Assembly (NCBI RefSeq): GCF_002954405.1
Contig: NZ_MQWC01000004.1
Coordinates: 2,097,909 to 2,161,908, forward strand
Source of the DNA: Salinibacter sp. 10B
GTDB lineage: Bacteria; Bacteroidota; Rhodothermia; Rhodothermales; Salinibacteraceae
Length of the DNA stretch: 64,000 nt
Direction of reading: 5' to 3'
This document shows, piece after piece, positions 7,909-49,787 of the stretch (positions are counted from its first letter, which is position 1; each line of letters begins with the position of its first letter). The position numbers and the translations under genes were made by a program. The notes below the pieces were generated by a model. That model had not been told where the DNA came from. It searched no databases and saw only the letters and a program-made list of their open reading frames with translations.

Positions 7909-8847
7909 ATGACGCCTACCTGCTCGCCCCGCCGATGCCTCTTCGGCCTCCCCGTACTTGGAGGTGTCCTGCTTGTCCTGCTCCTTTTCGGGTGTGGTGA
8001 GGAGGACCCTTCGCCCGAATCAGCGGCCCCAACCGTCGTCCCCGAGAGTGAGGTGCAGCGCAAGGTCGAGGCAGCACGCCGGCGCCTCACGCGAAACGAG
8101 GGCGGACGGTGCGTCCTGCGGGCCATCGAGGCGCACGGCGGCCTTGCGGCCTGGTACCGCGCCCCCACCAGTTCGTACACCTGGACGTACGCCAACACAG
8201 GCGCCGACCTCCGCTTCACGTCCTTCCTCGTCGTCGACAACCGAACGCGCCAAGCCTACCACGATCTGCTGACGGTGGGCTCCTACGACAACGCGCAGCC
8301 GGTCGACGCGCGGTTTGCCTGGAACGGGGAGCAGGCCTGGATTGCGCCCGACACCCTGCAACAACCCAATCCCCGCTTCTGGGCCCTCACCGGCTTCTAC
8401 TTCCAACAGATTCCGTTCGTCTTCGCGGATCCAGGCGTCAACTACGCGGCGTTGCCCGACGACACGCTCGACGGCACCCCGCACGACATGGTCAAGATTA
8501 CGTTCGACCGCGGCACCGGCGATGCCCCCGGCGACACGTACATCCTCTATCTCGATAAGAATTCCGGTCAGGTCGACGCCATCCGTTACACCGTGAGCTT
8601 TGGACGAGACGTCCCCCCTGGCGCCGACCTCCCCCAAACGTTCTTCGACTACCAGGACTACGTGACGGTCGACGGCCTCACCGTACCCACTCAGTTCGAA
8701 GGATACGCGTACTCGAACGACACGGGCATCGGCGACACGCTCCGCAACAAGGCCACTGTGGACAGCATCTCGTACCGGCGTCCGTTTGATGCATCAAAGC
8801 TGGAGGCGCCCGAGAACGCGCGCGTCGTGCCGCTGCCGAACGGTTGA
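7909..8847 (+). CDS. Putative lipoprotein (DUF6503-like)
   Basis: The 312-residue product has a lipoprotein signal peptide whose lipobox LLFGC puts the acylated Cys near residue 29, so it is probably anchored in an envelope membrane. The body (AIEAHGGLAAWY near the start, repeated short beta-strands, FFDYQDYVTVDGLTVPT near the end) resembles the LolA/LppX-like fold of Bacteroidota lipoproteins annotated DUF6503. No catalytic motif is visible. It may bind lipids or other hydrophobic ligands, but that is fold-level inference only. It follows the epimerase gene at short distance on the same strand. Confidence 0.6.
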   Translation: MTPTCSPRRCLFGLPVLGGVLLVLLLFGCGEEDPSPESAAPTVVPESEVQRKVEAARRRLTRNEGGRCVLRAIEAHGGLAAWYRAPTSSYTWTYANTGADLRFTSFLVVDNRTRQAYHDLLTVGSYDNAQPVDARFAWNGEQAWIAPDTLQQPNPRFWALTGFYFQQIPFVFADPGVNYAALPDDTLDGTPHDMVKITFDRGTGDAPGDTYILYLDKNSGQVDAIRYTVSFGRDVPPGADLPQTFFDYQDYVTVDGLTVPTQFEGYAYSNDTGIGDTLRNKATVDSISYRRPFDASKLEAPENARVVPLPNG

Positions 8848-8947
8848 CCCGCTGCCTCCCGGCGATGCTCTGATCGCGACTGCCGTCCTGTACGACGAAG
8901 TGGATCGAGCATTGAGGAGCGCGGGGGCTGCCTCAAATCGCCTCCTG

Positions 8948-9639
8948 CTACTCCGAGTGGACGTAGGCACGCCACCCGTGATGCCGCCGGGCAAGGCTGC
9001 GGAGGGTCTCGACGGCGTCTGGCGGCAGGCCAAGGCGGTCCCGATCCTGATCCAAGCGGTTGGGCGCCCGGTGTCCGGCAACGTACGCGTTCGCAAGGGT
9101 GGCTGCCGGAGAACGAGCAAAGGCCTCGTCACTCGACAGCCGTCCCCGAAACGCTGACACGAGAGCGCCGTGGCGGCGGAGCTTGTAGTTCTGGTGATGG
9201 AGAGCGGCCGGGGAAAACGACGCCTTCTCAATGATGTCGACCGTTGCGTATCGTCGTGCCGTTCCTCTTCCGCCGCGCGGGACGCCCGTGCCAGGTCCGA
9301 TTGTGCAGCAGTCTGGGGAAAGAGGGCGTGTGCGTATCGACGCTTGGCGGGGGTCTGCGCCGGATCGTGATGAGTCCAGAAGTGGTTGAGAAGCTCCCGG
9401 TAGCTGAGCTGATCGGGGGCAAACGCCACCCGTACGGCCTCCACGTGATCACCGATGGCCGAATGGGTCGGATTGGGGGTCGTCCCGCCCGCAAAGCCGA
9501 CGCAGGTCCGCACGACGCCGTCCCGCCCCCCAAAGACCGGATCGGCCCCCCAGAGACAGCCCAGCGCGACGACCGCTATGGTCGTGTCGGACGGCACCGC
9601 ACGGTCTAGCGGCGAGCGGATGGAATCGTTAGCAGGCAT
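8948..9639 (-). pseudogene. msrA: Frameshifted peptide methionine sulfoxide reductase A paralog
   Basis: Read from 9639, the first frame gives an MsrA-like N-terminal half: the active-site motif is GCLWG (GCFWG in most MsrA), followed by VVRTCVGFAGGTTPNPT and LLNHFWTHHDP. After EEERHDDTQ the match jumps to another frame, which supplies VDIIEKASFSPA, HHQNYKLRRH and the C-terminal part ending YVHSE at 8948. The break is near 9238-9246, and one extra base there would restore the frame. The deduced protein aligns along its whole length with the intact MsrA encoded at 49137-49787. This is either a recently inactivated second copy or a one-base sequencing or assembly error. Confidence 0.8.
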
Positions 9640-17795: not shown

Positions 17796-19550
17796 CTAAC
17801 GGTCCTGGAATGAGCGGCTGGACGCGGCCGACGCAGAACGACGGGAAGAAAACGCTGCAGGAGCAGCAAGCGCCGACGCAACGGCTCCGTCACGCTGGTA
17901 AATATCCTTGCGGAAGTGGAGCGTGCCCTCCTCCATCCAGGCGGTCCAGTAGAGCAGGTGCACCGGCACCTTCTGCTGCAAAACGACGGTCCGTTCGTCC
18001 TGCTTTTCCATTTCCTCTTGTACCCGCTCTGTCGTCCAGCCTGCATTGTCCTGCAGGAGGTACGCGGCAAGCTCAACCGGATACTCCACACGGATGCATC
18101 CGGAGCTAAATGTGCGTGCCGTCTGTCCGAAGAGGGAGCGCGACGGTGTATCGTGGAGATACACGTTGTGGCGATTGGGAAACATAAATTTGACGCGGCC
18201 GAGAGCGTTGTAAGGGCCGGGGCGCTGGCGCAGACGGTACGGAAACGTCTGGGCCGAAAGGCGATCCCACGCAATGGTTGTCGGATCAACCCTCTGGGCG
18301 TCCGCTCCCCATCCCCGGAGGACCTCAAAGCCCCACCTCGACACAAGCGACGGGTCGCGCTGAAACTCAGGCAGTTTGTCCTCAGCCGCAATGCGCGGCG
18401 GCACATGCCAGTACGGATTGAACACCAAATACGAAATCCGATCCGAAAAAATAGGCGTCTGTCGGTATTGGGTCCCGACCACCACGCGCATTTGAAGCGC
18501 ATTGTCTCCGTCTTCAACGACCCGCAGCCAGAAATCGGCAATGTTGACCATCACGTGCGGATTCCCCAGATCGTGGGGGAGCCAGCGCCAGCGCTCCATG
18601 TTCACCTCGATCTGCCGGATGCGCTCCCCGACCGGCACGTTCATCGCCGCCCGGGTGGCCGGGCCAACCACGCCATCAATGTCGAGCCCATGCCGCTCTT
18701 GAAATCGGGCGACGCCCTGTCGAAGTGCCTCATCGAACCGTAGCGAATCGTCTACAGAAGACGCCTCAGCGATGTCCCCGGTTGCCGCCAGGCGCTCTCG
18801 AAGCACCGGCACGCGCGGGTCCTTCATACCCTGTTCGAGTGTAGGTCCGTCCGGAACGGTAAACCAGCCGCCGCTCGCTTCGAGGACACGGTATCGGGCA
18901 AGAGCGCGCCGAAACGACGCGTACTCCGGCTGGGGCGGACGCAACGCATCCAGCGTGGCACGGACGTCCCCGTTCATCAAGGCCGCCTGCAAGTGCCGGG
19001 GGAGATCCGTTCGCTGCGGCGGAAGCGTCCAGGTTGACACTAGCTCAACCGGATCTACGCGTCCGCTATGAAGGTGAGTGCCGTAAAGGAGAAACGCATC
19101 CGTACACAGTAGCTCGAAATCAGCGAGGGCCCCCGCGTCCATCGACGGCCCTGCATCGACCTGGGCCTGCAGAAGACGCCGAAGCGAATCAATGGAGGAC
19201 ACGTGATAATCGGACGGACGCAATCCGTCCGTGTGGGCCTCCTGCAAAACAGCGAGCAAACTGTCAGCAAGCGGCGTCGGCCCGTCCGGACCGGTCCATC
19301 CCGGCTCAAATCCGTTCTGACGATAGTATTGTGCCACCAAACGATGGGCGCGGACCTGTTCGTCTCCCACCGTCATTGCCGCCGTAGAGCCGGCTTGGGC
19401 AGACTCAATCCGACGTCGCAACTGCGTCTCTATGTCGTCGAGCGGGCGAGGCGACCCGTCCATCCCCAGAAGCACACCGAGGACGCAGAGCGCGGCGACG
19501 AGAGCTTGAAGCCGAACGCGTAAAGAGGACGACACACGAAGGTGCAACAT
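17796..19550 (-). CDS. YcbB-type murein L,D-transpeptidase
   Basis: The start is put at ATG 19550, giving 584 residues with an N-terminal membrane/signal helix (LQALVAALCVLGVLLGM). The order is that of LdtD/YcbB: a helical scaffold domain (NGFEPGWTGPDG, SDYHVSSIDSL), a peptidoglycan-binding domain (GVARFQERHGLDIDGVVGPAT), then the YkuD catalytic domain. The YkuD domain has VGTQYRQTPIFSDRISYLVF, VYLHDTPSRSLFGQ and the nucleophile Cys in RTFSSGCIRV. It forms 3-3 crosslinks or attaches proteins to murein in the periplasm. The C-terminus is an Ala/Ser-rich tail. It lies 102 bases downstream of an M15-like peptidase on the same strand, probably one operon. Confidence 0.92.
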   Translation of the reverse strand: MLHLRVSSSLRVRLQALVAALCVLGVLLGMDGSPRPLDDIETQLRRRIESAQAGSTAAMTVGDEQVRAHRLVAQYYRQNGFEPGWTGPDGPTPLADSLLAVLQEAHTDGLRPSDYHVSSIDSLRRLLQAQVDAGPSMDAGALADFELLCTDAFLLYGTHLHSGRVDPVELVSTWTLPPQRTDLPRHLQAALMNGDVRATLDALRPPQPEYASFRRALARYRVLEASGGWFTVPDGPTLEQGMKDPRVPVLRERLAATGDIAEASSVDDSLRFDEALRQGVARFQERHGLDIDGVVGPATRAAMNVPVGERIRQIEVNMERWRWLPHDLGNPHVMVNIADFWLRVVEDGDNALQMRVVVGTQYRQTPIFSDRISYLVFNPYWHVPPRIAAEDKLPEFQRDPSLVSRWGFEVLRGWGADAQRVDPTTIAWDRLSAQTFPYRLRQRPGPYNALGRVKFMFPNRHNVYLHDTPSRSLFGQTARTFSSGCIRVEYPVELAAYLLQDNAGWTTERVQEEMEKQDERTVVLQQKVPVHLLYWTAWMEEGTLHFRKDIYQRDGAVASALAAPAAFSSRRSASAASSRSFQDR

Positions 19551-19652
19551 TGGGCGAAAGGCGAAAAGGAAAGACACCGCGGGGTCCCCGATGGCAGTGT
19601 CCCCCATGGGATAAGAGGGAACGCGCAGCTCGCGACAAAGCTCCCCCCTGCA

Positions 19653-20612
19653 CTACCACCGTGCGCGATACCCCCGGAGATCCACATGAATAAAGGGGCC
19701 GCGGTGCGAGGCAGCGCTGTAGATGCCGAGCCCCCCGTTGAAGCGGTCGTCACCGGGGGTGGGGTCGTCCCGCACAAGGGCCGCCAGATAGCGGGCGTCC
19801 GCCTCGGTTGCGCGCCCGTCGCCCGTCAGGTCGTCCATCCATCGATCTCCGTCGGTATCCACGAAAACATCGGCGGCGTCGCCGTAAAGGTGGCGGCTAT
19901 ACTCCGTCGTGTTGCCGATGGCGCGGTTGTAGTACGGCGTTCGGTAGCCACTCATAACGTGAAGCGTGGACGCATCATGCCCTCGCGCATTCAGGGCAGC
20001 AAGAAGTCCTTCCAGCCGGTGAAGGAGACGGGTTCGAATGAGCGCAAACTGCGGAGTAGCCTCCGTCTGTTTGCAGAGGAACTGCTCCAACCGGAAGTGT
20101 GGCGCTACAAGCACGTCTTTGTTCGCGTCCGTCACCTCAATAAACCCCGAGGGCGGCTCGTACGTCTCCAGCCCGCGCCGGGCATGCTGCTCGTAGCGCC
20201 CGATGCGGTAGCCTGCGAGTTTCCGTCCGTCGTGATCCCACGGCGTCAATACGAAGACCTGAAGCCGAACGGTATCCCGAGCGGTTGTGTCGGTCACCAC
20301 CACGGGGTAGAGGCCCGGCTCCGACGGTGCCGAGAAGCGCCACTGCCCATCGGAAACGGAACGGACTGTTTCTGCGGGCGCATCAATCCGATACCCCCCA
20401 CCCATGGAGCTCCCCCCCGCCGCTACGCGGACCGGGGCGTTTGGCAAAGCCGTCACGGCCATGATGCGATGCGTGACCACCGCGTCGCCGAACTGCACCG
20501 TGAACGCCGCCCGTCCCGGATCAAAAGCAGTCGTCTCGGCAGAGACCGTGGGCACAACAAGGAGTAATCCCCCTAGGCCCAGAAGCGCGAGGTATACACG
20601 GAGAGACGACAT
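19653..20612 (-). CDS. M15-like (DUF882/YcbK-type) murein peptidase
   Basis: This 319-residue exported protein has a signal peptide (MSSLRVYLALLGLGGLLLVV). A beta-rich N-terminal region of unknown role precedes a C-terminal peptidase_M15 fold from about 165. Zinc-site motifs are HVMSGYRTPYYN, SRHLYGDAADVFVD and HVDLRG near the end, which supply the His/Asp/His set of this family. An Asp-rich insertion (DTDGDRWMDDLTGDG) lies between them and looks like a calcium-binding dockerin/EF-hand-type loop. It probably cleaves D-containing bonds in peptidoglycan and is co-transcribed with the L,D-transpeptidase. Confidence 0.82.
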   Translation of the reverse strand: MSSLRVYLALLGLGGLLLVVPTVSAETTAFDPGRAAFTVQFGDAVVTHRIMAVTALPNAPVRVAAGGSSMGGGYRIDAPAETVRSVSDGQWRFSAPSEPGLYPVVVTDTTARDTVRLQVFVLTPWDHDGRKLAGYRIGRYEQHARRGLETYEPPSGFIEVTDANKDVLVAPHFRLEQFLCKQTEATPQFALIRTRLLHRLEGLLAALNARGHDASTLHVMSGYRTPYYNRAIGNTTEYSRHLYGDAADVFVDTDGDRWMDDLTGDGRATEADARYLAALVRDDPTPGDDRFNGGLGIYSAASHRGPFIHVDLRGYRARW

Positions 20613-20725: not shown

Positions 20726-21592
20726 TTAGGACGCCGGCGTCGGTGAGGCTGACGATTCCACTCCCGCCCCCGACACCGGCGCAGCGTCCGTCTCGACGGA
20801 GGAAGCGCCCTCATCCTCGTCCTCCGTCCAGTAGAGGTCCACGAGCATAGCGGCCGGCCCAACCAGAAAGAGCGCGTAGAACGGCGCCGCGATGAATTCG
20901 GCCAGGCGAAGGAAAAACTCAACAATCGCAATAAGGACCGTCACCCACATCTCTCCTTTCCTAGACGACACCGTCGTCACCGGGTCCGTAATCATAAAGA
21001 GCGCAAAGAGCTGATACATCGGCCCGGTGAGGGGCGCCACCTCGGTCCAGAAGCCGTCGCCCGTCACGAAGCCGCGCACGAACGCCAGCGCGACGAACGC
21101 GGCAATGTAGGTCGCCGTGATGTGGAAGCGCTTGACCTTCCAGATCGTGTAGAGTCCCACGATCCAGATGACCAGCATCGGCCACATGTTGTTGCCCCAC
21201 TGCGTGTTGAGCGGAGCAATGTCGAGCATCCCGTAGGCCGCCGGGAAGAAGAGGACGCAGAGTCCAAAGTTGGAGGGATTCCAGAGGTGACGGCCCTTCA
21301 CGCGAAGGACGTACTTCGACATGATCGAGAGCACGCTGCAGAGCGCAAAGGGCCAGAGCAGCGGGGAGCGCACCAGAATGCCCACGCTGATGCCGGAGGT
21401 GTAGGCACTGGCGGGATGCGGCCACTCCCCCCACATGAGACGCCCCAGCACCAATTCCGTCACGACGGCCGCTGCGATGGCCAGCAGGATGGCGTCAAAG
21501 CCCCGAAGAATGCCGAAGGAGAAGTGTCCCGCGATCAGAATGAGCGAAATCAGAACCGGCGGGACGAGGCGAACGTCAATCTTGTTCATCAT
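20726..21592 (-). CDS. Orphan RnfD/NqrB-like membrane protein
   Basis: The 288-residue protein has about nine or ten hydrophobic helices and an acidic Ser/Asp/Ala-rich C-terminal tail. It matches the NqrB/RnfD family at RHLWNPSNFGLCVLFFP and LFALFMITDPVTTVSS. In true NqrB/RnfD an SGAT-type Thr carries covalent FMN; no such motif is seen here, so the flavin site may be missing. No other rnf or nqr gene lies in the window. Instead it is directly downstream of two CRTAC1 genes on the same strand, with a 54-base gap, so it is probably a subunit of a membrane/surface system with them (inference). Confidence 0.75.
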   Translation of the reverse strand: MMNKIDVRLVPPVLISLILIAGHFSFGILRGFDAILLAIAAAVVTELVLGRLMWGEWPHPASAYTSGISVGILVRSPLLWPFALCSVLSIMSKYVLRVKGRHLWNPSNFGLCVLFFPAAYGMLDIAPLNTQWGNNMWPMLVIWIVGLYTIWKVKRFHITATYIAAFVALAFVRGFVTGDGFWTEVAPLTGPMYQLFALFMITDPVTTVSSRKGEMWVTVLIAIVEFFLRLAEFIAAPFYALFLVGPAAMLVDLYWTEDEDEGASSVETDAAPVSGAGVESSASPTPAS

Positions 21593-21646
21593 AGCACGTG
21601 CCGATCACAAATTGCAGGATCGCTCAGTCTTCGGGAAAGAAGAAGA

Positions 21647-23479
21647 TTACTGACGCTCAGAGATTGTCTCTCGTTCTGGCTCCGTCACCTCGTGCCTCCT
21701 GTTGACCTCCGGAGCATCGAGCGTCTGCGTGATGCCGGAAGGCCAGTGGATCACAGCTTTCTCGACGGTGGCGGCCGTACCGAGACCAAAATGGAGTGGG
21801 CGCTGGTTCTGCGCGCCAAATCCACTGCCCCCGTACACTTGCTGTACCTGCTTCTGGTCCTTCCAGTGGAGCACAACGCGGGCCCCGATCGCGCTCCGAT
21901 TGCTCTGCGTTCCCGTCAGGTCAAACCCAATCCAGTTGCGCTGCGCGTCCACCTCATTGCGGTACACCTCTACCGGCCCACGCTGATTGGCCACAACGGC
22001 GTCGAGCGTGCCCCGCCCCCACAGATCCACGAGCGCCACGGCCCGCCCGTCGTGCGTGGAGGCGCCCCCCACTGCTGGAGCCACGTTCTGGAACTGCCCC
22101 GCCCCGTCGTTGAGCCAGATGCGCGTCTGCTGGTGGCCCGAGAGGCTCCGCCCCTCCATCGCGGGCCAGTTGTCGGCATCCTCGATGATGTTCTTGTACC
22201 CCCCCGCAATTTTTGAAAAGTCGTACCAGTAGCTCTCCTCCTGCGAACCGGAGTAGAAGCCGTTGACCACAAAGAGATCCTGCCATCCGTCGTTGTTGAG
22301 GTCGCCGAATTGCGCTCCGTAGCTCCACCCGGCCTTCGCCACTCCCATCGTGCCGGCGAGATTTTCGAATTCGGGCGTGCTTCCCCCCTGAGCCGTGTCG
22401 GGCATCCACAAGTTGTTGCCCTGCACGAGCACCCCTTCCTCCGTGAGGTTGCTTACGTAAAGCGCCTGCGTTCCCTGATTCAACACATCCCCCGTGGATG
22501 CATTCATGCCGCTCTTTGGAATCCGGCCCAGGTTCGATACCCGGCTTGCGTTGCGAAATCCCTCCCCCTTCTCATTGACGAAAAACTGGTCCGCCCCAAA
22601 GTCATTGGCGACGAAGAGGTCGGGGTACCCGGACCCGGTATAGTCGGTAGCGAGAGCGGCGAGCGTCCATCGCGTGCCGGTGAGCCCCCACTCCTCGGCA
22701 ACCTCTCGAAACGTGCCATCGCCCTGATTAAGGAAGAGATAATTCGTACCGCCGTTGTTTGCGTACTCGTAGCTCTCCGGCATCACGCGGGTGGTCTCCA
22801 GATCCCAGAGATTGAATTGCTCCGCGTAGAAGGTCCCCACGAACAGGTCAAGGTGTCCGTCTCGGTTCACATCCGTCCAGATGGCCGTATTGGCATTAAT
22901 CCAATCGGGCAGTCCCTTCAGCTTATCGGTGACGCGCGTGAAACCGGTTCCGGCGCCCGATCCGGTATCGTTTCGGAAAAGAATGCACTGCCCCCATTTG
23001 TAGAGGAAGAGGTCCTCGTCCCCATCGTTGTCGTAGTCGCCCCACACGCTGCCCATGGAGGTGCCGGTGCCCTTCTGATTGACGTCGCCCACGCCAAGTT
23101 GGGACGCGACATTCTGGAAGGATCCGTCGCCCTGGTTGCGGTACAGTGCGTTGGTCGTGCCGTACGCGCTGTTGGTGACGTAGAGGTCCGAGTCGCCGTC
23201 GTTGTCGAAGTCGGCGACAGACACCGACGCTCCTACCTGCGCCACCTCCGGCATGATGTGGGCGACGGACGAGTCGAGGGTGGGCGCCTGGTGGGTAAAG
23301 TCGATGCCCACCTCTTCGGCCTCCTCGTTGAGCACAAAGCCATAACGCTCCAGGGCCACCTGGCGGTCAAGCGTGCCGCCTGCCCCCTCGGCGGGCCAAT
23401 AGTTCAGAATCAGCGGCACGGAGAGCAAACCGACGAAGATAATCCCAAGGACACTTCGCAGGATGGTGCGATTCGTCAT
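21647..23479 (-). CDS. CRTAC1 family protein (FG-GAP propeller with ASPIC/UnbV domain)
   Basis: The 610-residue protein has an N-terminal signal or anchor helix (TILRSVLGIIFVGLLSVPLIL). Residues about 60-480 carry repeated FG-GAP/VCBS blades with calcium-binding Asp clusters: DFDNDGDSDLYV, DYDNDGDEDLFL, DVNRDGHLDLFV and DLNNDGWQDLFV. The C-terminal ASPIC/UnbV domain runs from about 515 (NWIGFDLTGTQSNRSAIGARV, HFGLGTAATVEKAVIHWPSG). Such proteins are extracytoplasmic beta-propellers of unknown function related to human cartilage acidic protein 1. It lies between a TPR-CRTAC1 lipoprotein gene and the RnfD-like gene in the same orientation. Confidence 0.9.
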   Translation of the reverse strand: MTNRTILRSVLGIIFVGLLSVPLILNYWPAEGAGGTLDRQVALERYGFVLNEEAEEVGIDFTHQAPTLDSSVAHIMPEVAQVGASVSVADFDNDGDSDLYVTNSAYGTTNALYRNQGDGSFQNVASQLGVGDVNQKGTGTSMGSVWGDYDNDGDEDLFLYKWGQCILFRNDTGSGAGTGFTRVTDKLKGLPDWINANTAIWTDVNRDGHLDLFVGTFYAEQFNLWDLETTRVMPESYEYANNGGTNYLFLNQGDGTFREVAEEWGLTGTRWTLAALATDYTGSGYPDLFVANDFGADQFFVNEKGEGFRNASRVSNLGRIPKSGMNASTGDVLNQGTQALYVSNLTEEGVLVQGNNLWMPDTAQGGSTPEFENLAGTMGVAKAGWSYGAQFGDLNNDGWQDLFVVNGFYSGSQEESYWYDFSKIAGGYKNIIEDADNWPAMEGRSLSGHQQTRIWLNDGAGQFQNVAPAVGGASTHDGRAVALVDLWGRGTLDAVVANQRGPVEVYRNEVDAQRNWIGFDLTGTQSNRSAIGARVVLHWKDQKQVQQVYGGSGFGAQNQRPLHFGLGTAATVEKAVIHWPSGITQTLDAPEVNRRHEVTEPERETISERQ

Positions 23480-23492
23480 GGTTACTGTGGTT

Positions 23493-23550
23493 TATTGCGT
23501 ATTGCGTATTTCGTATTGCGTATGAGAGCGAGTGGCACCACGAAATACGC
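23493..23550. repeat. Heptanucleotide tandem repeat overlapping an 11-bp inverted repeat
   Basis: Positions 23493-23520 are four 7-base units, tattgcg, tattgcg, tatttcg, tattgcg. The arm gcgtatttcgt (23504-23514) has an exact inverted copy, acgaaatacgc, at 23540-23550. The element sits in the gap between the two CRTAC1 genes, just upstream of the start at 23479. Similar 'tacgcaatacgcaat' simple repeats recur in intergenic DNA of many bacteria, so it may be a mobile or slippage-generated repeat, or a hairpin affecting the downstream gene. Confidence 0.6.
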
Positions 23551-23592
23551 ACGACAGGCAAAATATCATCGGCGAGCAGCTCCGATCGGGGA

Positions 23593-26500
23593 CTACCTCT
23601 CCCTCCCAACGGTCAGCGCCTGATGAAAGCCCCGCGGCGTCACGTAGCGCGTGTGGTAGGTCTGCCAGTCCTGCGGGTGCATTCGGTACGCCGGATCCTC
23701 CTCCAACGGTCCAGGGGGAGTCGAATAATCCTCCATTCCATGGTAGGGGAGCGGACGTACGGTTTTCGAGTAGCCGGTGTTGTAGTCTCCGTCCTTCACC
23801 CAGCCGTCGCCAATGAGCACGAAGTCGCGCGTCCAGCCCTCTGGCGGGGGCGGCGGGGCCTCGAAGCGCAGCACCATCTCGTCCCCGGCGTTCATGATCA
23901 CGTAGCGATCGTCCGTCTGCGTGAGAAGGGGGCGCACGTCGCCGAAGCGCGTGTGGTAGCCTTCGAGGTCACGCCAGATCGGCGCCGTGCTCGCAATCGA
24001 GTCGTAGACCGGCACCGTCGGCTTCCGGCGCTCGGTCTGCACAACTTTTGAGAAGCCGCGATAGCGGAGGCGGGCTGAATCCGGCGTCATTACGTGGGTT
24101 TGCACCTCCGTGTCCGGGCGGCCGGTGGCCCATGCGAGGCGGTCCCAGTAGATTTCCATGTTGGTGCGCAGACGCACACGGTGCGGCCCATCCGCCCCCC
24201 CGACATCCGAGAGATCAATGAGCATGGTCTTCGATTTGCCCGCCGGAAAGCCGATGTCGGACTTCGCAACGGTCCAGCCCCCCGTTCCGTCCGGCACCTC
24301 CAGCGTGAGGCTCCGCGGCGCGTCGTGGTCGCCCTGACTGATGGCGAGATTGATGGACGTATCCGTCGGGTACACCCAGCCGTCGGCCACCAGCCAGAGC
24401 GGTCCGTCCGTCGGCACGTCCTCGCCCAGGTCTACCGTGACGGAATGGGCGGCGGCCCGCCCCTGAAACGGCCCCAGCTCAAAGGTGTCGAGGTAGCGCC
24501 CGTCCTTCGCCTGTACCCGGTCGGTCACGTCGCGGCCTGCCTGATCCGTGGCGTTCGCCACCGGCTGTGGATCGGAAAGCGGAACGAGCGTCTGATCCGG
24601 CGGCGGCATGTGGAAACGCTCATCGATGCGCACCGGGGTGTCCGCGGGATGATCGACGGCCATCAACTCAACCCGATCAAAGAAGTGGCTCTCCCACAGC
24701 TCGCCCGTAATGCGGATGTCGTACATGCCGTTGCGACGCGCCACGTGCTCCCCCGGAATAAAGATCCGATCTTCGCTGTGGATGACCTGCGCCTTCCCCT
24801 GCGCGTTGATACGGAGGCCGAGCGCCGTGCGCCAAAGGAAGTCGGTTGCGAAGCGCATGCCCTCTCCGTCGTAGGTGTACACCCACGGACACGACCCCTT
24901 CAATCGCTGGCGGGCCCGAGCGGTCTGGGTAGACACGAGATCAAACTCGGCCTGGACGGTGCCGTTGGGCCAGGTAATGCGCGCGACGTCGGCCCCCGTT
25001 CGACGACCAATCCCAAAGTGGACGGTGGGATCGTCAATGACGCGCTTCTGATAAAGCAGGCCGCTCCGGAGTTCGATTTCACCGCCCAGGCCAAACGGAT
25101 TGATCCGGCGGTCGCCCTGGGTGCGGGCCGCCCGGGGCTGAATGCGCTGCGATTGATAGTTTGCGGTGCCCTCATTCGTCAGGCGAAGCGGAGTCCCGTC
25201 CGGACCGAGCCCCACGAGATCGAGGCGCCCCGCCCCTCGCACGTCCGCCGCCCCAAAGGCTGGGTGTTCAATGGGTGTGGACAGCGCCGTAAACGTCTGC
25301 GTCGAATCGCGGAGCCACACCTGTCCCCCTTCTGGCCCCGACGCCAGCACGTCGACGCCGCCGTTGTTGTCAAAGTCGCCGGTCAGGAGCCGAGCGTCGG
25401 CAGGCGCCTCGTCCCACTGAAAGAGGACCTCGCTCGTCCACCCCGACGAGCCGGCATCGGTGAGGCGCCGGATTGCCCCGTTCTCATGGAGCAGCAGAAG
25501 GTCGAGCGTGGCGTCCCCATTTACATCCGTCACCGCAAGGGCATGGGCGGGGGCAAGTGTGTCCGGCACGGTCCGGCGCTGGAAGCGAGGCGTGGCAGAA
25601 CGACGGTTGTCGTAGACGTGGAGCTGCCCCTCCGCATCGAGCATAGCAGCCTCCGGAGGGCCGTCGCCATCCAGGTCGCCCCACACGAACGCCCGGAGCG
25701 CCTGCACGTCATCGAAGTAGTTGCGCGTACTGAAGGTTGCGTCCCCGTTGTTGCGAAGCACCACAGGCGCGCCCTGCGCCCGCGCCGCAACAAGATCAAG
25801 ATCGCCGTCCATGTCAAGGTCGGCCGTCCAAATGCCAGCGTACGCCCCATTGCGAACGGACGCCGGAACGGCCTCAGACGGCAGCGCCCGAAACGACGTG
25901 TCGGCCGCCTGGCGGTACACCTGAAGTCCGCCCGCGCCCGCGGCCGCCAGGTCCGTACGGAAATCGTAGTCCAGATCCAGTGCCGCGACGGCGTGCCCCG
26001 ACGGCGCCGTGCCGCCCCCTGGAAACGACATCGTCTCGGTGCGCCCAAGCCCGGTCTCCACCCGCAGGGTTTGGCGGTTGGCCATCATCACGTCCGGCGG
26101 CACCCCGTCCGAAAGCGTCATCGGGGCGACCCAATCCCACGTCCCCGCCGTCGTCACCGTGTCGGGCGTAAAGGCGAGGCCGGTGTCTGCCGGTGCGGGC
26201 CGCGAGTCCGGCGTCTGGAGGCGAAGGGGCCGTGCCAGCACGGAGCCGAGCTGTTCTCCCGGTGGCTGCACGACCTGCCGGTCGGCCTGGTAGGCCTCTA
26301 CGCGTTTGAGGTCATTCTTCAGGAACGCTACTGTCGAGGCGGCCTTCGACGGAGTGCCCATCACGTCCTGCACGTCCCGAAACGATTGCTGTACCGATTC
26401 CGGCCACGCTGACGCATGGTCGGCCAGTTGCTCGACGGCCTCTCGCAGCCCCTCCGTGTGCCCTCCCTTTGCAGCGAGACGCGCTCGTTCCACGAGGACC

Positions 26501-27042
26501 GCCACGTTGCCCGGTTCCAGTCGGAGCAACCGGTCCATGAGTTGGAGGGCCTCGGTTGTCGCCCCCTCGCCGCCTCGCTGCTCAATCACCTGAGCGAGGG
26601 TGTAGACGGCGCGCCGGTTGGTGGAGTCGAGTTCGGCCGCCCGGCGCAGGTAGGCAATGGACTGCTCGTACTCCCCCTGCTCGCGTGCCAGAAGGCCCGA
26701 CAGGTACTGGATGGGGCCGTGGTCCGGCGCCAATCCTCGCGCCCGTTCCAGATACTGCGCAGCCGTTTCGTACTTCCGGGTGCGGAGGTCGATCAGGCCC
26801 CGATTGGCCCAGACAGCCGGCTCGCCGGGGGCCTTCTTTGCTGCCGTCTCCAGGTGATTCCGCGCGCGAAAATTCTCACCGACCTGGAGAGCCGTTACCC
26901 CAGTGTAGAAGGCCGTCACGGCCTCCTGGTACGCCCCGGCGCCGGGGGTCGGGACACGATCGGACTGGCAGGCCCCGAGTCCAAGAACAAGAACCAACAG
27001 CCCCATGGAGCGTGTCCAGGGCCGCCGCAGCAGAGACATCAT
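23593..27042 (-). CDS. Giant TPR-FG-GAP-ASPIC/UnbV lipoprotein (CRTAC1 family)
   Basis: The start is set at ATG 27042 (or the adjacent ATG 27039), giving about 1149 residues. A lipoprotein signal ends at LGLGAC. Residues about 35-190 form TPR repeats (AVTAFYTGVTALQVG, AAQYLERARGLAPDHG, SIAYLRRAAELDSTN). FG-GAP blades cover about 330-690 (DLDMDGDLDLVAAR, DLDGDGPPEAAML, DVNGDATLDLLLL, DFDNNGGVDVLAS). An ASPIC/UnbV motif (HFGIGRRTGADVARITWPNG) is near 750. The last 350 residues are a separate domain beginning GSCPWVYTYDGEGMRFATDF. It is the first gene of the apparent operon with the second CRTAC1 and the RnfD-like gene. Its function is unknown; surface scaffolding or assembly is inference. Confidence 0.85.
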   Translation of the reverse strand: MMSLLRRPWTRSMGLLVLVLGLGACQSDRVPTPGAGAYQEAVTAFYTGVTALQVGENFRARNHLETAAKKAPGEPAVWANRGLIDLRTRKYETAAQYLERARGLAPDHGPIQYLSGLLAREQGEYEQSIAYLRRAAELDSTNRRAVYTLAQVIEQRGGEGATTEALQLMDRLLRLEPGNVAVLVERARLAAKGGHTEGLREAVEQLADHASAWPESVQQSFRDVQDVMGTPSKAASTVAFLKNDLKRVEAYQADRQVVQPPGEQLGSVLARPLRLQTPDSRPAPADTGLAFTPDTVTTAGTWDWVAPMTLSDGVPPDVMMANRQTLRVETGLGRTETMSFPGGGTAPSGHAVAALDLDYDFRTDLAAAGAGGLQVYRQAADTSFRALPSEAVPASVRNGAYAGIWTADLDMDGDLDLVAARAQGAPVVLRNNGDATFSTRNYFDDVQALRAFVWGDLDGDGPPEAAMLDAEGQLHVYDNRRSATPRFQRRTVPDTLAPAHALAVTDVNGDATLDLLLLHENGAIRRLTDAGSSGWTSEVLFQWDEAPADARLLTGDFDNNGGVDVLASGPEGGQVWLRDSTQTFTALSTPIEHPAFGAADVRGAGRLDLVGLGPDGTPLRLTNEGTANYQSQRIQPRAARTQGDRRINPFGLGGEIELRSGLLYQKRVIDDPTVHFGIGRRTGADVARITWPNGTVQAEFDLVSTQTARARQRLKGSCPWVYTYDGEGMRFATDFLWRTALGLRINAQGKAQVIHSEDRIFIPGEHVARRNGMYDIRITGELWESHFFDRVELMAVDHPADTPVRIDERFHMPPPDQTLVPLSDPQPVANATDQAGRDVTDRVQAKDGRYLDTFELGPFQGRAAAHSVTVDLGEDVPTDGPLWLVADGWVYPTDTSINLAISQGDHDAPRSLTLEVPDGTGGWTVAKSDIGFPAGKSKTMLIDLSDVGGADGPHRVRLRTNMEIYWDRLAWATGRPDTEVQTHVMTPDSARLRYRGFSKVVQTERRKPTVPVYDSIASTAPIWRDLEGYHTRFGDVRPLLTQTDDRYVIMNAGDEMVLRFEAPPPPPEGWTRDFVLIGDGWVKDGDYNTGYSKTVRPLPYHGMEDYSTPPGPLEEDPAYRMHPQDWQTYHTRYVTPRGFHQALTVGRER

Positions 27043-27275
27043 GCAGAGGGAAAGATGAATGTCAGAGCAAGACAACCGGTAGGATCTCTTCGTACCAGTG
27101 CTCGTGGTCTTGGTTCACCCTCCCCGGTCCCCGATCGGTCGACTCGGCTTCCCTGTTCGCCCGCTCTCCATCAGGAGGACCTGCCCGTTCCCCTTCGGGT
27201 CTCTTCTTGCCCGCTCATTTCGTCGAGGCAGTCCACACGGATGGTCCCGCCTCCCCCTCGCTCCCCTCCAACCGA

Positions 27276-39528: not shown

Positions 39529-40497
39529 TCACTTCCGGAATATGTTCTCGCGGTGCTGCTCCAAATACTCGGGATCCGGCCAGAGAGCGTCTTCCTCAGG
39601 AAGATGTGGGGAGCGACCATCGAGCGTGTCCAGCATGCCCGTCGTATTGTAGGAGGCCGTCAGTTCCGAAGAGGTGCGGATGGTGTACTCGGGAGAAATC
39701 GTGATGAGGCCGTTCTCGAAGGCCCAGTGGCAGAGCTTGTTGAGGGCAATTCCGTTCCGTGGATCGTCGTTGTGGCTTTCGCTCCAGGGAACGATGTGCG
39801 CAGCATCCACGGCGGTGTGGGCGTCGGCCGTTAAAATTCGGATGCCGCTAACGGCACAGCGATGGTCGTACGCTTCTACGACCACGCGACGAAACCCTTT
39901 GTCGCGCACGTGTGCTTCCGGCTCGTCAACCTCCGCTGTTTCCTCCGACTGGACAAGGTCCAGGAGCCTGCGACTGTACCGATACGCTTTCTCGTGAACG
40001 TGTCCTTTCTCGTACAGGACCTCGTGTACATCCTCGGCAAAGTACGTCTCGATCAAGGTCCGGCGCAGAGGCTCCCGGTCTTCTTCATTCTGCATCAGCT
40101 CAAACAGGGAATCGTCAAGTCGTGCGCCGTCGGTGTGCTCGTGCAGCAGGCGCGTCGACCGCAATCGCCGACCGGACTCCACGACATTTTCGTGCCCCGG
40201 TGACGGGATGAGATGCCAGAAGCCTTCGCTCGTCAGGTGGTAAAAGGGAAGAGCGATGTTCGGGGGATGATCGATCGGCATCACCGCCCGCCAGTATTCC
40301 GAGAACGGATCCCCGAGTGCTGGATCCAATGGAATCCGATTCTCCTCGATGCTTCCCTCCGCAAATCGATCGACCACCGCAAGAAGGAGAAGCGGCTTGT
40401 GTGGAGAGGCCTGCAGGGTGGTCGTCGGATAGCGCTCCTGGTTGTGGTCCTGTCGCAGACGGGAGAAGTGATCGATATATTCGGACAATACGGACAT
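39529..40497 (-). CDS. HNH endonuclease with N-terminal sulfur-binding-domain-like region
   Basis: The 322-residue protein has two parts. The C-terminal HNH nuclease (HNH_2 type) is clear: AYDHRCAVSGIR, VDAAHIVPWSESHNDDPRNG with H234 and N248, then ALNKLCHWAFENGLI with H257. The N-terminal 170 residues contain QASPHKPLLLLAVVDRF (H33, K34, P35) and LPFYHLTSEGFWHL, a layout like the DNA-sulfur-binding domain of ScoMcrA-type type IV restriction enzymes that cut phosphorothioate-modified DNA. Assignment of that domain is from the motif pattern only. A second HNH gene of similar architecture lies 146 bases upstream on the same strand, suggesting a restriction pair. Confidence 0.8.
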   Translation of the reverse strand: MSVLSEYIDHFSRLRQDHNQERYPTTTLQASPHKPLLLLAVVDRFAEGSIEENRIPLDPALGDPFSEYWRAVMPIDHPPNIALPFYHLTSEGFWHLIPSPGHENVVESGRRLRSTRLLHEHTDGARLDDSLFELMQNEEDREPLRRTLIETYFAEDVHEVLYEKGHVHEKAYRYSRRLLDLVQSEETAEVDEPEAHVRDKGFRRVVVEAYDHRCAVSGIRILTADAHTAVDAAHIVPWSESHNDDPRNGIALNKLCHWAFENGLITISPEYTIRTSSELTASYNTTGMLDTLDGRSPHLPEEDALWPDPEYLEQHRENIFRK

Positions 40498-48858: not shown

Positions 48859-49137
48859 ATGGACGACCTTGAAATGGACGAGCCGAGTCCGGAATTCATG
48901 GCCGCAACCTACGTGGCCCAAATCGCCCCTCTTCTCTTCGACGTGGCCGACCAGGCCCGCGAGATTGGCGACGAGCCCCAGCACGTGGCCGTGGCCGAGG
49001 AAACCGTGACCGCTCACATCAAGCGGCAAAACTTCGACGTCGAGCGTACCGTGGCCACCGTGCAGAAGGTGGAAGACGGCATCGAAATTGAATACCAGGG
49101 CCGTACTGCTACCCTCTCCTTCGACGACGACGAATAA
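48859..49137 (+). CDS. Small acidic hypothetical protein coupled to msrA
   Basis: A 92-residue, strongly acidic protein from ATG 48859 (MDDLEMDEPSPEFM). It has a helix-rich start (YVAQIAPLLFDVADQAREIG) and a beta C-terminus (GIEIEYQGRTATLSFDDDE). No known domain. Its stop codon overlaps the ATG of msrA (taatg), a classic translational-coupling arrangement, so it probably works with or is expressed with MsrA. It is too small to be an oxidoreductase and lacks Cys. Confidence 0.6.
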   Translation: MDDLEMDEPSPEFMAATYVAQIAPLLFDVADQAREIGDEPQHVAVAEETVTAHIKRQNFDVERTVATVQKVEDGIEIEYQGRTATLSFDDDE

Positions 49138-49787
49138 TGCGTCCCCCAATCGATCAGACTGCCCCGTCCGACACGGCCGAGGCGGCCTTCGGCCTCGGCT
49201 GTTTCTGGGGCCCGGATGCTCTTTTTGGGGCGATGACCGGCGTCGTGCGTACGTGCGTCGGGTATGCCGGGGGGACCACCCCCGCCCCGACCTACGAGGA
49301 GATTGGCGATCACATCGAGACGGTGCGCGTCGAATACGACCCCACAACGCTTTCCTACGTCGATCTCCTCGACGCCTTCTGGGCCGCCCACGACCCGACG
49401 CGCGCCCCTTTCAAGCGTCAGTACCAGACGGCCCTGTTCCCGTGCACCGAGGAGCAGGCCCAGCAGGCTCATTCCTCACGCACCGCGGTTGCCGAGCGGA
49501 TAGACGCCCCCCTCACTACTGAGATTATTGCAGAGGCGTCTTTTTCTCGGGCCGAAGCCTATCACCAGAAACACAAGCTCCGCCGCCATCCCGATCTCTT
49601 CGAGGCCCTGCGCGCCTTCTATCCGAGTGACGAAGCATGCGTGAACGCCCCGGCTGCCGCCCTCCTCAACGGCTACGTTGGGGGACAGCGGGCCCCGCGG
49701 CATCTTGCGGACGACGGCCCTCGGCTGGGCCTGCCTCCAGAGACCACCGATCACCTTCGCACGCTGGTGGAACGTCGACACGCCTGA
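49137..49787 (+). CDS. msrA: Peptide methionine sulfoxide reductase A
   Basis: The 216-residue intact copy has the MsrA active-site motif GCFWG with nucleophilic C22, VVRTCVGYAGGTTPAPTYEEIG, VRVEYDPTTLSYVDLLDAFW, AAHDPT and QYQTALFP. The usual Glu after the active site (GCFWGxE) is Asp (GPDALF). It reduces S-methionine sulfoxide in damaged proteins. A single further Cys in DEACVNAP may be the resolving residue. It overlaps the preceding acidic protein gene by one base. A frameshifted paralog lies at 8948-9639, so this is probably the functional copy. Confidence 0.9.
   Translation: MRPPIDQTAPSDTAEAAFGLGCFWGPDALFGAMTGVVRTCVGYAGGTTPAPTYEEIGDHIETVRVEYDPTTLSYVDLLDAFWAAHDPTRAPFKRQYQTALFPCTEEQAQQAHSSRTAVAERIDAPLTTEIIAEASFSRAEAYHQKHKLRRHPDLFEALRAFYPSDEACVNAPAAALLNGYVGGQRAPRHLADDGPRLGLPPETTDHLRTLVERRHA

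Follow-up and report, generated by a model that had tools for sequence, protein, structure and literature searches.

The enediyne polyketide synthase (PKS) cassette yields iodinated polyenes and polyynes, and its genes for DUF1702, CRTAC1-type, RnfD-like and PKS proteins carry the designations that we take to be E3, E4, E5 and PKSE, respectively. Here we describe a locus on a 64,000-nucleotide stretch of Salinibacter sp. 10B DNA (contig NZ_MQWC01000004.1 of assembly GCF_002954405.1, positions 2,097,909 to 2,161,908; hereafter the window), in which an RnfD-like gene and a CRTAC1-type gene are UnbU and UnbV, homologues of E5 and E4 that stand here without a polyketide pathway. Published passages name the cassette E10/E/E5/E4/E3 (PMC5181780), describe E4 and E5 within it as indispensable and of uncertain role (PMC11069151), and report that iodine is essential for anthraquinone-fused enediynes (PMC9464397). 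We found no open-access paper combining RnfD and CRTAC1, none on this pair under the names UnbU and UnbV among titles, abstracts and some passages, and only an unrelated lichen paper for enediyne together with ASPIC; as far as the open-access literature shows, the pair is undescribed outside PKS clusters.

The RnfD-like protein has a second set of described relatives in ion-pumping redox complexes. According to passages of PMC9325719 and PMC10643135, electron transfer in NqrB runs from a covalent flavin mononucleotide (FMN) close to the periplasm, by way of a riboflavin closer to the cytoplasm, to ubiquinone, and the riboflavin is held, among other contacts, by the side chains of Thr162, Asn200, Asn203 and Asp346; the D346A mutation drastically lowers voltage generation (PMC10643135). 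Passages of PMC10979944 further describe two-subunit Nqr/Rnf-like complexes whose NqrB/RnfD-like subunit lacks the Thr while keeping an apparent non-covalent flavin site.

Results

An E5/E4-like gene pair in a three-gene locus

The locus comprises three genes on the minus strand separated by 113 and 54 bases, an arrangement already read from the sequence in the original prediction and confirmed here by open reading frame (ORF) calling and Pfam:

20726-21592, minus strand: UnbU, membrane protein of predicted RnfD/NqrB fold without the covalent-FMN loop, enediyne E5 homologue (PF03116)
21395-21397, minus strand: UnbU Ser66, aligning with NqrB riboflavin ligand Thr162
21263-21289, minus strand: UnbU H102-G110 (HLWNPSNFG), with His102 at the NqrB Asn200 position and Asn105 aligning with riboflavin ligand Asn203
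20972-20989, minus strand: UnbU T202-T207 (TDPVTT), with Asp203 aligning with NqrB riboflavin ligand Asp346
21647-23479, minus strand: UnbV, membrane-anchored CRTAC1 propeller with ASPIC domain, enediyne E4 homologue (PF13517 and PF07593)
23593-27042, minus strand: TPR-FG-GAP-ASPIC (TPR-CRTAC1) lipoprotein, third member of the trio (Pfam TPR, FG-GAP_3 and UnbV_ASPIC, with a lipobox-like LGAC)

UnbU matches PF03116 at 34.3 bits (cut-off 27.7) and scores 26.3 bits on the TIGR01946 rnfD model, far under its cut-off of 207.05. UnbV scores 74.7 bits on UnbV_ASPIC, in addition to FG-GAP, and the TPR-CRTAC1 lipoprotein scores 27.7 bits (cut-off 23.4). The ORF of the latter extends over 23593-27075 with a TTG start, the earlier reader having placed an ATG at 27042, and the LGAC motif follows a hydrophobic stretch near its N-terminus. 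The closest relative found (86%) is encoded on a Salinivenus metagenome-assembled genome contig that recurs as an own-genus genome (L002 and L117 are the same contig, counted once).

To place the pair beyond its own phylum we relied on plasmid records only, which give examples there and not a surveyed pairing rate. A tblastn search with the RnfD-like protein against 72,556 such records matched 46, 43 of them from Streptomyces, and many of the 40 listed matches are annotated 'enediyne biosynthesis protein' or 'UnbU'. UnbU matches E5 on the C-1027 plasmid SGLP1 of Streptomyces globisporus at 30.1% over 63% of the query (E 2e-7), and the gene order there is DUF1702, DUF1702, CRTAC1, RnfD-like, type I PKS. 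Four other Streptomyces plasmids, those of S. goshikiensis and S. clavuligerus among them, share the order CRTAC1-type, RnfD-like, PKS. On a Serratia plasmid a ketosynthase gene lies upstream of DUF1702, VCBS (CRTAC1-like) and RnfD-like genes, and comparison of ORFs on Sinorhizobium meliloti T073 pSymA (L025, 4733-14852) revealed what is, by homology, a complete enediyne-type cassette: DUF1702-like, CRTAC1 and UnbU-like genes, a 1911-aa PKS-like frame and a short thioesterase-like ORF. An association of RnfD-like and CRTAC1 genes in other phyla, put forward in the original prediction, thus exists in Actinomycetota (Streptomyces plasmids) and in Pseudomonadota (Serratia and, by ORF comparison, Sinorhizobium).

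Several of these plasmids carry further genes beside the UnbU-like gene. An L-histidine N-alpha-methyltransferase gene follows it directly on the Serratia proteamaculans AGR_495 plasmid (L023, 4026-9720), and plasmids of Streptomyces sp. NBC_00887 and NBC_00726 (L143, L144) combine CRTAC1, UnbU and PKS genes with a nearby carotenoid oxygenase and, in the stretch shown, no DUF1702; the latter perhaps serve a polyene pathway other than the enediyne one. On a Metabacillus sp. B2-18 plasmid (L022, 5234-6621), the UnbU-like gene shares four bases with an AhpC/redoxin gene, an overlap that fits a redox rather than a transport role.

We assessed whether partner genes occur elsewhere in the genome, which is listed as 99.97% complete. 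Profile searches returned UnbU as the single PF03116 match and no match to PF02508 (RnfA/RnfE/NqrD/NqrE), in agreement with the earlier view of an RnfD-like protein without rnf or nqr partners, and these searches found no rnf or nqr operon missing its rnfD, so that this refuting condition of the original prediction is not borne out. PF02508 was likewise without a match in seven of ten UnbU genomes searched. The C-1027 PKS matched only frames of 340-468 aa in the Salinibacter genome, the size of fatty-acid-synthesis enzymes, and the E3 protein of G103, a genome of the same phylum, found no match (one protein query; the DUF1702 profile PF08012 was not searched). Nine of ten UnbU genomes searched, the window's own included, had neither a full-length PKSE match nor a match to G103 E3. 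G103 itself encodes DUF1702, CRTAC1, RnfD-like and PKS proteins consecutively, forming a complete E3-E4-E5-PKS cassette with a full-length PKSE match, and in G123 a 3843-aa frame, which we take to be another PKS, matches PKSE over two short parts at 30%. The Salinibacter genome has one match to ApbE; despite this match, we rejected covalent flavinylation by ApbE, as UnbU has no attachment site. ApbE gave no match in six of the 27 UnbU genomes searched, suggesting that UnbU does not need flavinylation.

Association and co-inheritance of UnbU and UnbV

We then determined whether the pairing with CRTAC1 exceeds chance, the other point on which the original prediction could have been refuted. Among 148 genomes of the phylum, ten have the RnfD-like gene, and a CRTAC1-type ORF lies within the 1.5 kb flanks at nine of these ten loci (in G119 the CRTAC1 neighbour is of the TPR-CRTAC1 type only), compared to none of the 30 RnfD/NqrB loci listed out of 55 strong RnfD/NqrB matches in that sample. 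Across the class, 52 of 244 genomes matched in a profile search, and 45 of the 52 were counted as UnbU family (E below 1e-29, three of them partial); the seven weak-match genomes, six of them matching over the C-terminal half, were taken as NqrB or fragments and excluded. A CRTAC1-type ORF was present within 1.5 kb at 28 of the 30 class loci listed, the two misses ending at contig ends. The two counts overlap, since the class sample shares seven of the ten genomes of the phylum sample. The association is far above chance, and chance adjacency is rejected by these counts. Among ORFs of at least 60 aa, a single-sequence and profile search found no UnbU-like ORF beside 16 other CRTAC1 loci, and the same search recovered three positive controls.

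The order TPR-CRTAC1, UnbV, UnbU is conserved at 22 of 29 distinct loci besides the window. The exceptions lack TPR-CRTAC1 (L013), place the RnfD-like gene first with TPR-CRTAC1 next (L014), carry TPR-CRTAC1 inverted and 6.9 kb away (L017) or behind UnbU (L111), meet a contig end (L114), have no CRTAC1 (L020) or form the PKS cassette (L021); at L113 and L121 the TPR-CRTAC1 gene is cut by a contig end. Loci such as L108, L107, L120 and L125 show an extended layout of a long CRTAC1 gene (~1110-1120 aa), TPR-CRTAC1, UnbV, UnbU, SusC and SusD, with another long CRTAC1 gene after SusD where the contig continues.

UnbU and UnbV are co-inherited. In a CRTAC1 tree of 55 rows (20 PKS-free UnbV, 8 E4, 7 long CRTAC1, 4 TPR-CRTAC1 and 16 other CRTAC1), all 28 UnbV and E4 rows fall into a single group (100/96) that excludes the 27 other rows, another short CRTAC1 from the window's own genome among them; because UnbV and E4 form one clade apart from other CRTAC1 proteins, the pair travels together. 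In the UnbU tree (40 rows, including 10 of the 30 RnfD/NqrB rows, with midpoint rooting only), one group holds the 6 PKS-linked rows and another the 22 PKS-free rows, both with support of at least 100/99, and NqrB/RnfD are set apart from all UnbU rows at 100/100. Two UnbU rows with other partners sit on long branches with no sure place.

Predicted fold and flavin site of UnbU

The AlphaFold2 model of UnbU (mean predicted local distance difference test score 81.8) aligned with RnfD at Z 23.2 (root-mean-square deviation 4.5 over 257 residues) and with NqrB at Z 21.0, followed by the urea transporter (Z 12.5) and AmtB (Z 12.0) families, so that UnbU is predicted to have the RnfD/NqrB fold. The NPSNFGL and TDPVTT landmarks noted earlier are present, and the reported lack of an SGAT-type flavin-attachment motif extends to the family, with [ST]GA[ST] in none of 17 members.

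Alignment of 17 UnbU rows with 30 RnfD/NqrB rows bore out the loss of the covalent-FMN site: the residue and its loop are a gap in 17/17 UnbU rows, compared to Thr in 21/30 and Ser in 9/30 RnfD/NqrB rows. The position of NqrB Thr162 is Ser in 11/17 and Thr in 6/17 UnbU rows (Thr in 30/30 RnfD/NqrB rows), that of Asn203 is Asn in 17/17, and that of Asp346 is Asp in 17/17 UnbU and 30/30 RnfD/NqrB rows. Three of the four riboflavin side-chain ligands of NqrB are therefore kept (T162 as S/T, N203 and D346), with His at the fourth, Asn200, in 17/17 rows, and the missing attachment motif need not mean a flavin-free UnbU. Because the FMN loop is lost and the riboflavin-ligand positions are largely retained, we expect, with reserve, a single non-covalent flavin in UnbU.

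UnbU thus resembles RnfD/NqrB in predicted fold (Z about 20-23), PF03116 membership and the T162, N203 and D346 positions, but differs in lacking the FMN loop and partner subunits and in carrying His for Asn200. The pair also has a precedent in the two-subunit Nqr/Rnf-like complexes (PMC10979944, PMC8238504), which likewise join a Thr-less NqrB/RnfD-like subunit to one membrane-anchored extracytosolic partner. In those complexes, however, the partner is NqrC/RnfG-like and the membrane subunit has an NAD-binding domain (PMC10979944, PMC8238504), whereas Pfam shows only PF03116 and no C-terminal NAD-binding domain in UnbU, and only FG-GAP/ASPIC and no FMN-bind domain in UnbV.

UnbV and its pair-specific residues

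The best structural match of the UnbV model is murine CRTAC1 (9etn, TM 0.69/0.76), and a sequence search of the PDB up to E 0.01 matched no other entry. The two share the propeller and ASPIC domain, and UnbV differs from CRTAC1 in an N-terminal hydrophobic helix (hydrophobic stretch at residues 6-24); five of seven UnbV/E4 N-termini passed a hydrophobicity test. When we compared 28 UnbV/E4 rows with 23 other CRTAC1 rows (murine CRTAC1 not included), I75, A84, W162, M233, N242, W271, W418, W438, G448 and A497 were present in 28/28 UnbV/E4 rows and in 0-13% of the others. N242, W418 and W438 fall in a gap in most other CRTAC1 rows, and W418 and W438 sit in low-confidence stretches of the model; W162, M233 and W271 are pair-specific residues mostly lacking in those other rows.

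Genomic surroundings

Among 28 stretches, the window included, 15 contain SusC-like genes (BLAST clusters, two members Pfam-checked). SusD-like genes occur in 12 of the 28 (BLAST cluster, two members Pfam-checked) compared to 1.26 expected from the SusD density of the same genomes (Poisson P about 1e-8), and 3-keto-disaccharide hydrolase genes in 6, all Pfam-confirmed, compared to 0.85 expected (P about 3e-4); both P values are too small, as the loci are related and the two counting methods differ. Single or few loci have GH3, GH9, GH65, aldose epimerase, LacI regulator, GFO/IDH/MocA oxidoreductase or copper-binding (plastocyanin/azurin) domain protein genes.

Carboxymuconolactone-decarboxylase-like (CMD) genes, Pfam-confirmed, adjoin UnbV in L013 (9950-10849) and L017 (10375-11560), and the C-1027 plasmid has a CMD-similar ORF annotated 'peroxidase-related enzyme'; these were set aside, the cases being too few. 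Two genes lie downstream of the trio in the window:

19653-20612, same strand as the trio: peptidase-like gene
17796-19607, same strand as the trio: L,D-transpeptidase-like gene

We rejected both as partners of the trio, as they are 6.7 kb from the RnfD-like gene in the nearest relative. Elsewhere in the window are two peptide methionine sulfoxide reductase genes 40 kb apart (8794-9639, minus strand, and 49137-49787, plus strand) and a gene for a protein with an HNH_2 endonuclease domain (39529-40497, minus strand).

Discussion

The original prediction called this system uncharacterised. That description falls in one respect, since the two genes correspond to the known E4/E5 pair of the enediyne cassette, and stands in another, as the role of the pair is uncertain there too in the relevant passages of PMC11069151. 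The Salinibacter pair and C-1027 E4-E5 are alike in both families, gene order and strand, in the single clade of UnbV and E4, and in a UnbU that lacks the FMN loop and has invariant His, Asn and Asp residues. They differ in that the Salinibacter genome has no PKSE or E3 match and carries a third TPR-CRTAC1 gene, and in that many PKS-free relatives have SusC/SusD neighbours; PKS-linked UnbU rows share only 20-28% identity with the window's UnbU in the alignment.

The best-supported reading, in which we place about even confidence, is that UnbU and UnbV form a two-protein membrane redox module that uses one non-covalent flavin for an extracytoplasmic reaction. The pair would stand alone, joined here and in most relatives by the TPR-CRTAC1 lipoprotein. 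UnbU would be a membrane electron carrier of RnfD/NqrB stock that has dropped its covalent FMN and retained one non-covalent flavin, probably riboflavin, in the former NqrB pocket. UnbV, tethered by its single N-terminal helix, would dock directly on the outer face of UnbU and hold the substrate or a substrate carrier, and in this sense the two may constitute the membrane-to-surface system first suggested for them. Electrons would flow from the extracytoplasmic substrate to the UnbU flavin and end up in the quinone pool. The PKS polyene, dehydrogenated towards polyynes, would be that substrate in polyketide clusters. In Rhodothermia, where SusC/SusD and at times 3-keto-sugar genes lie nearby, an imported compound would take its place, perhaps a sugar. 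Gene pairing, homology, predicted fold, FMN-loop loss, conservation of flavin-ligand positions and co-inheritance are what the data show; a bound flavin, contact between the two proteins, the path of the electrons and the substrates are inferred. A broader version, in which the pair is an extracytoplasmic oxidase module of general use that predates antibiotics or has no tie to them, with a catalytic or substrate-holding CRTAC1 propeller whose electrons are drained through a single non-covalent flavin in UnbU, and in which enediyne pathways recruited it for polyene desaturation while Rhodothermia apply it to imported nutrients, is speculative and in our judgement rather unlikely.

Several observations weigh against a redox module of this kind. 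Within the flavin site, the NqrB Asn200 position is His in 17/17 UnbU rows and the Gly198 position is Gly in only 10/17, so the pocket may hold something else, and without the FMN an electron arriving from outside would have a longer path. The N-termini of C-1027 and S. goshikiensis E4, two of the seven tested, are under the hydrophobicity threshold. The pairing has exceptions: in G045 of the same phylum (L020, 7823-10138) the UnbU-like gene is followed by a DUF2330 gene instead of CRTAC1, and no CRTAC1 is annotated near the Metabacillus UnbU-like gene. The gene is also patchy, found in 45/244 class genomes and 2/13 listed genomes of the genus. SusC is missing from 13/28 stretches and the hydrolase from 22/28, partly owing to contig ends, and neither SusC nor SusD nor a 3-keto-hydrolase occurs in the 24 kb compared around the window's own locus, so that a sugar or polysaccharide substrate is a lead and not a finding. 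Finally, co-overexpression of tnmE3/E4/E5 did not raise tiancimycin titre according to passages of PMC11069151, a result that is silent on mechanism and lends no support.

The main competing explanation, possible though we think it improbable, is that UnbU is a channel, transporter or flippase, its FMN loss a return to transport and UnbV a substrate-binding cap. NqrB and RnfD share their fold with urea and ammonium transporters, which rank after RnfD/NqrB in the model comparison, and SusC/SusD in about half of the stretches would fit an uptake chain; yet the predicted fold is much closer to RnfD/NqrB, 17/17 rows retain S/T66, N105 and D203 at the flavin-ligand positions, and the pathway of PKS-linked relatives includes oxidative steps. 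The presence of two CRTAC1-type proteins in the trio, often beside further long CRTAC1 genes, could instead mean that UnbU anchors CRTAC1 surface proteins in the membrane or helps to assemble them, or is a calcium-dependent sensing part, with no electron transfer. We find this doubtful: UnbV brings a hydrophobic helix of its own at the N-terminus, polar flavin ligands would not be required of an anchor, and the absence of UnbU-like ORFs at the 16 other CRTAC1 loci indicates that CRTAC1 proteins generally do without UnbU.

Two further explanations rank lower. Homology to E4/E5 and the complete cassette of G103 in the same phylum would suit genes left over from an enediyne cluster whose PKS was lost, but PKS-free rows group by themselves in both trees, and the PKS-free form recurs across the class and usually has a constant third partner, and G103 has the sole full-length PKSE and E3 matches among the ten genomes searched; together these make a remnant very unlikely. 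That UnbU belongs, as a subunit that became detached, to an Rnf or Nqr complex with genes elsewhere in the genome is suggested by its PF03116 homology and otherwise contradicted, by the lack of a second PF03116 or any PF02508 match in the genome, by the missing FMN loop and by the seven of ten UnbU genomes without PF02508, and on the genome searches we reject it with near certainty.

Passages of a 2024 paper (PMC11069151) still call the role of E3, E4 and E5 uncertain. A PKS-free lineage allows the action of the pair to be told apart from that of the polyketide pathway and offers a new route to the function of the pair, and the conserved flavin-ligand positions make the question of a UnbU flavin, and the roles of H102, N105 and D203, directly testable. 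If the redox reading is true, the RnfD/NqrB family would gain a small membrane redox device and CRTAC1 proteins a functional context; the broader version would also give a bacterial member of the CRTAC1 family a biochemical role.

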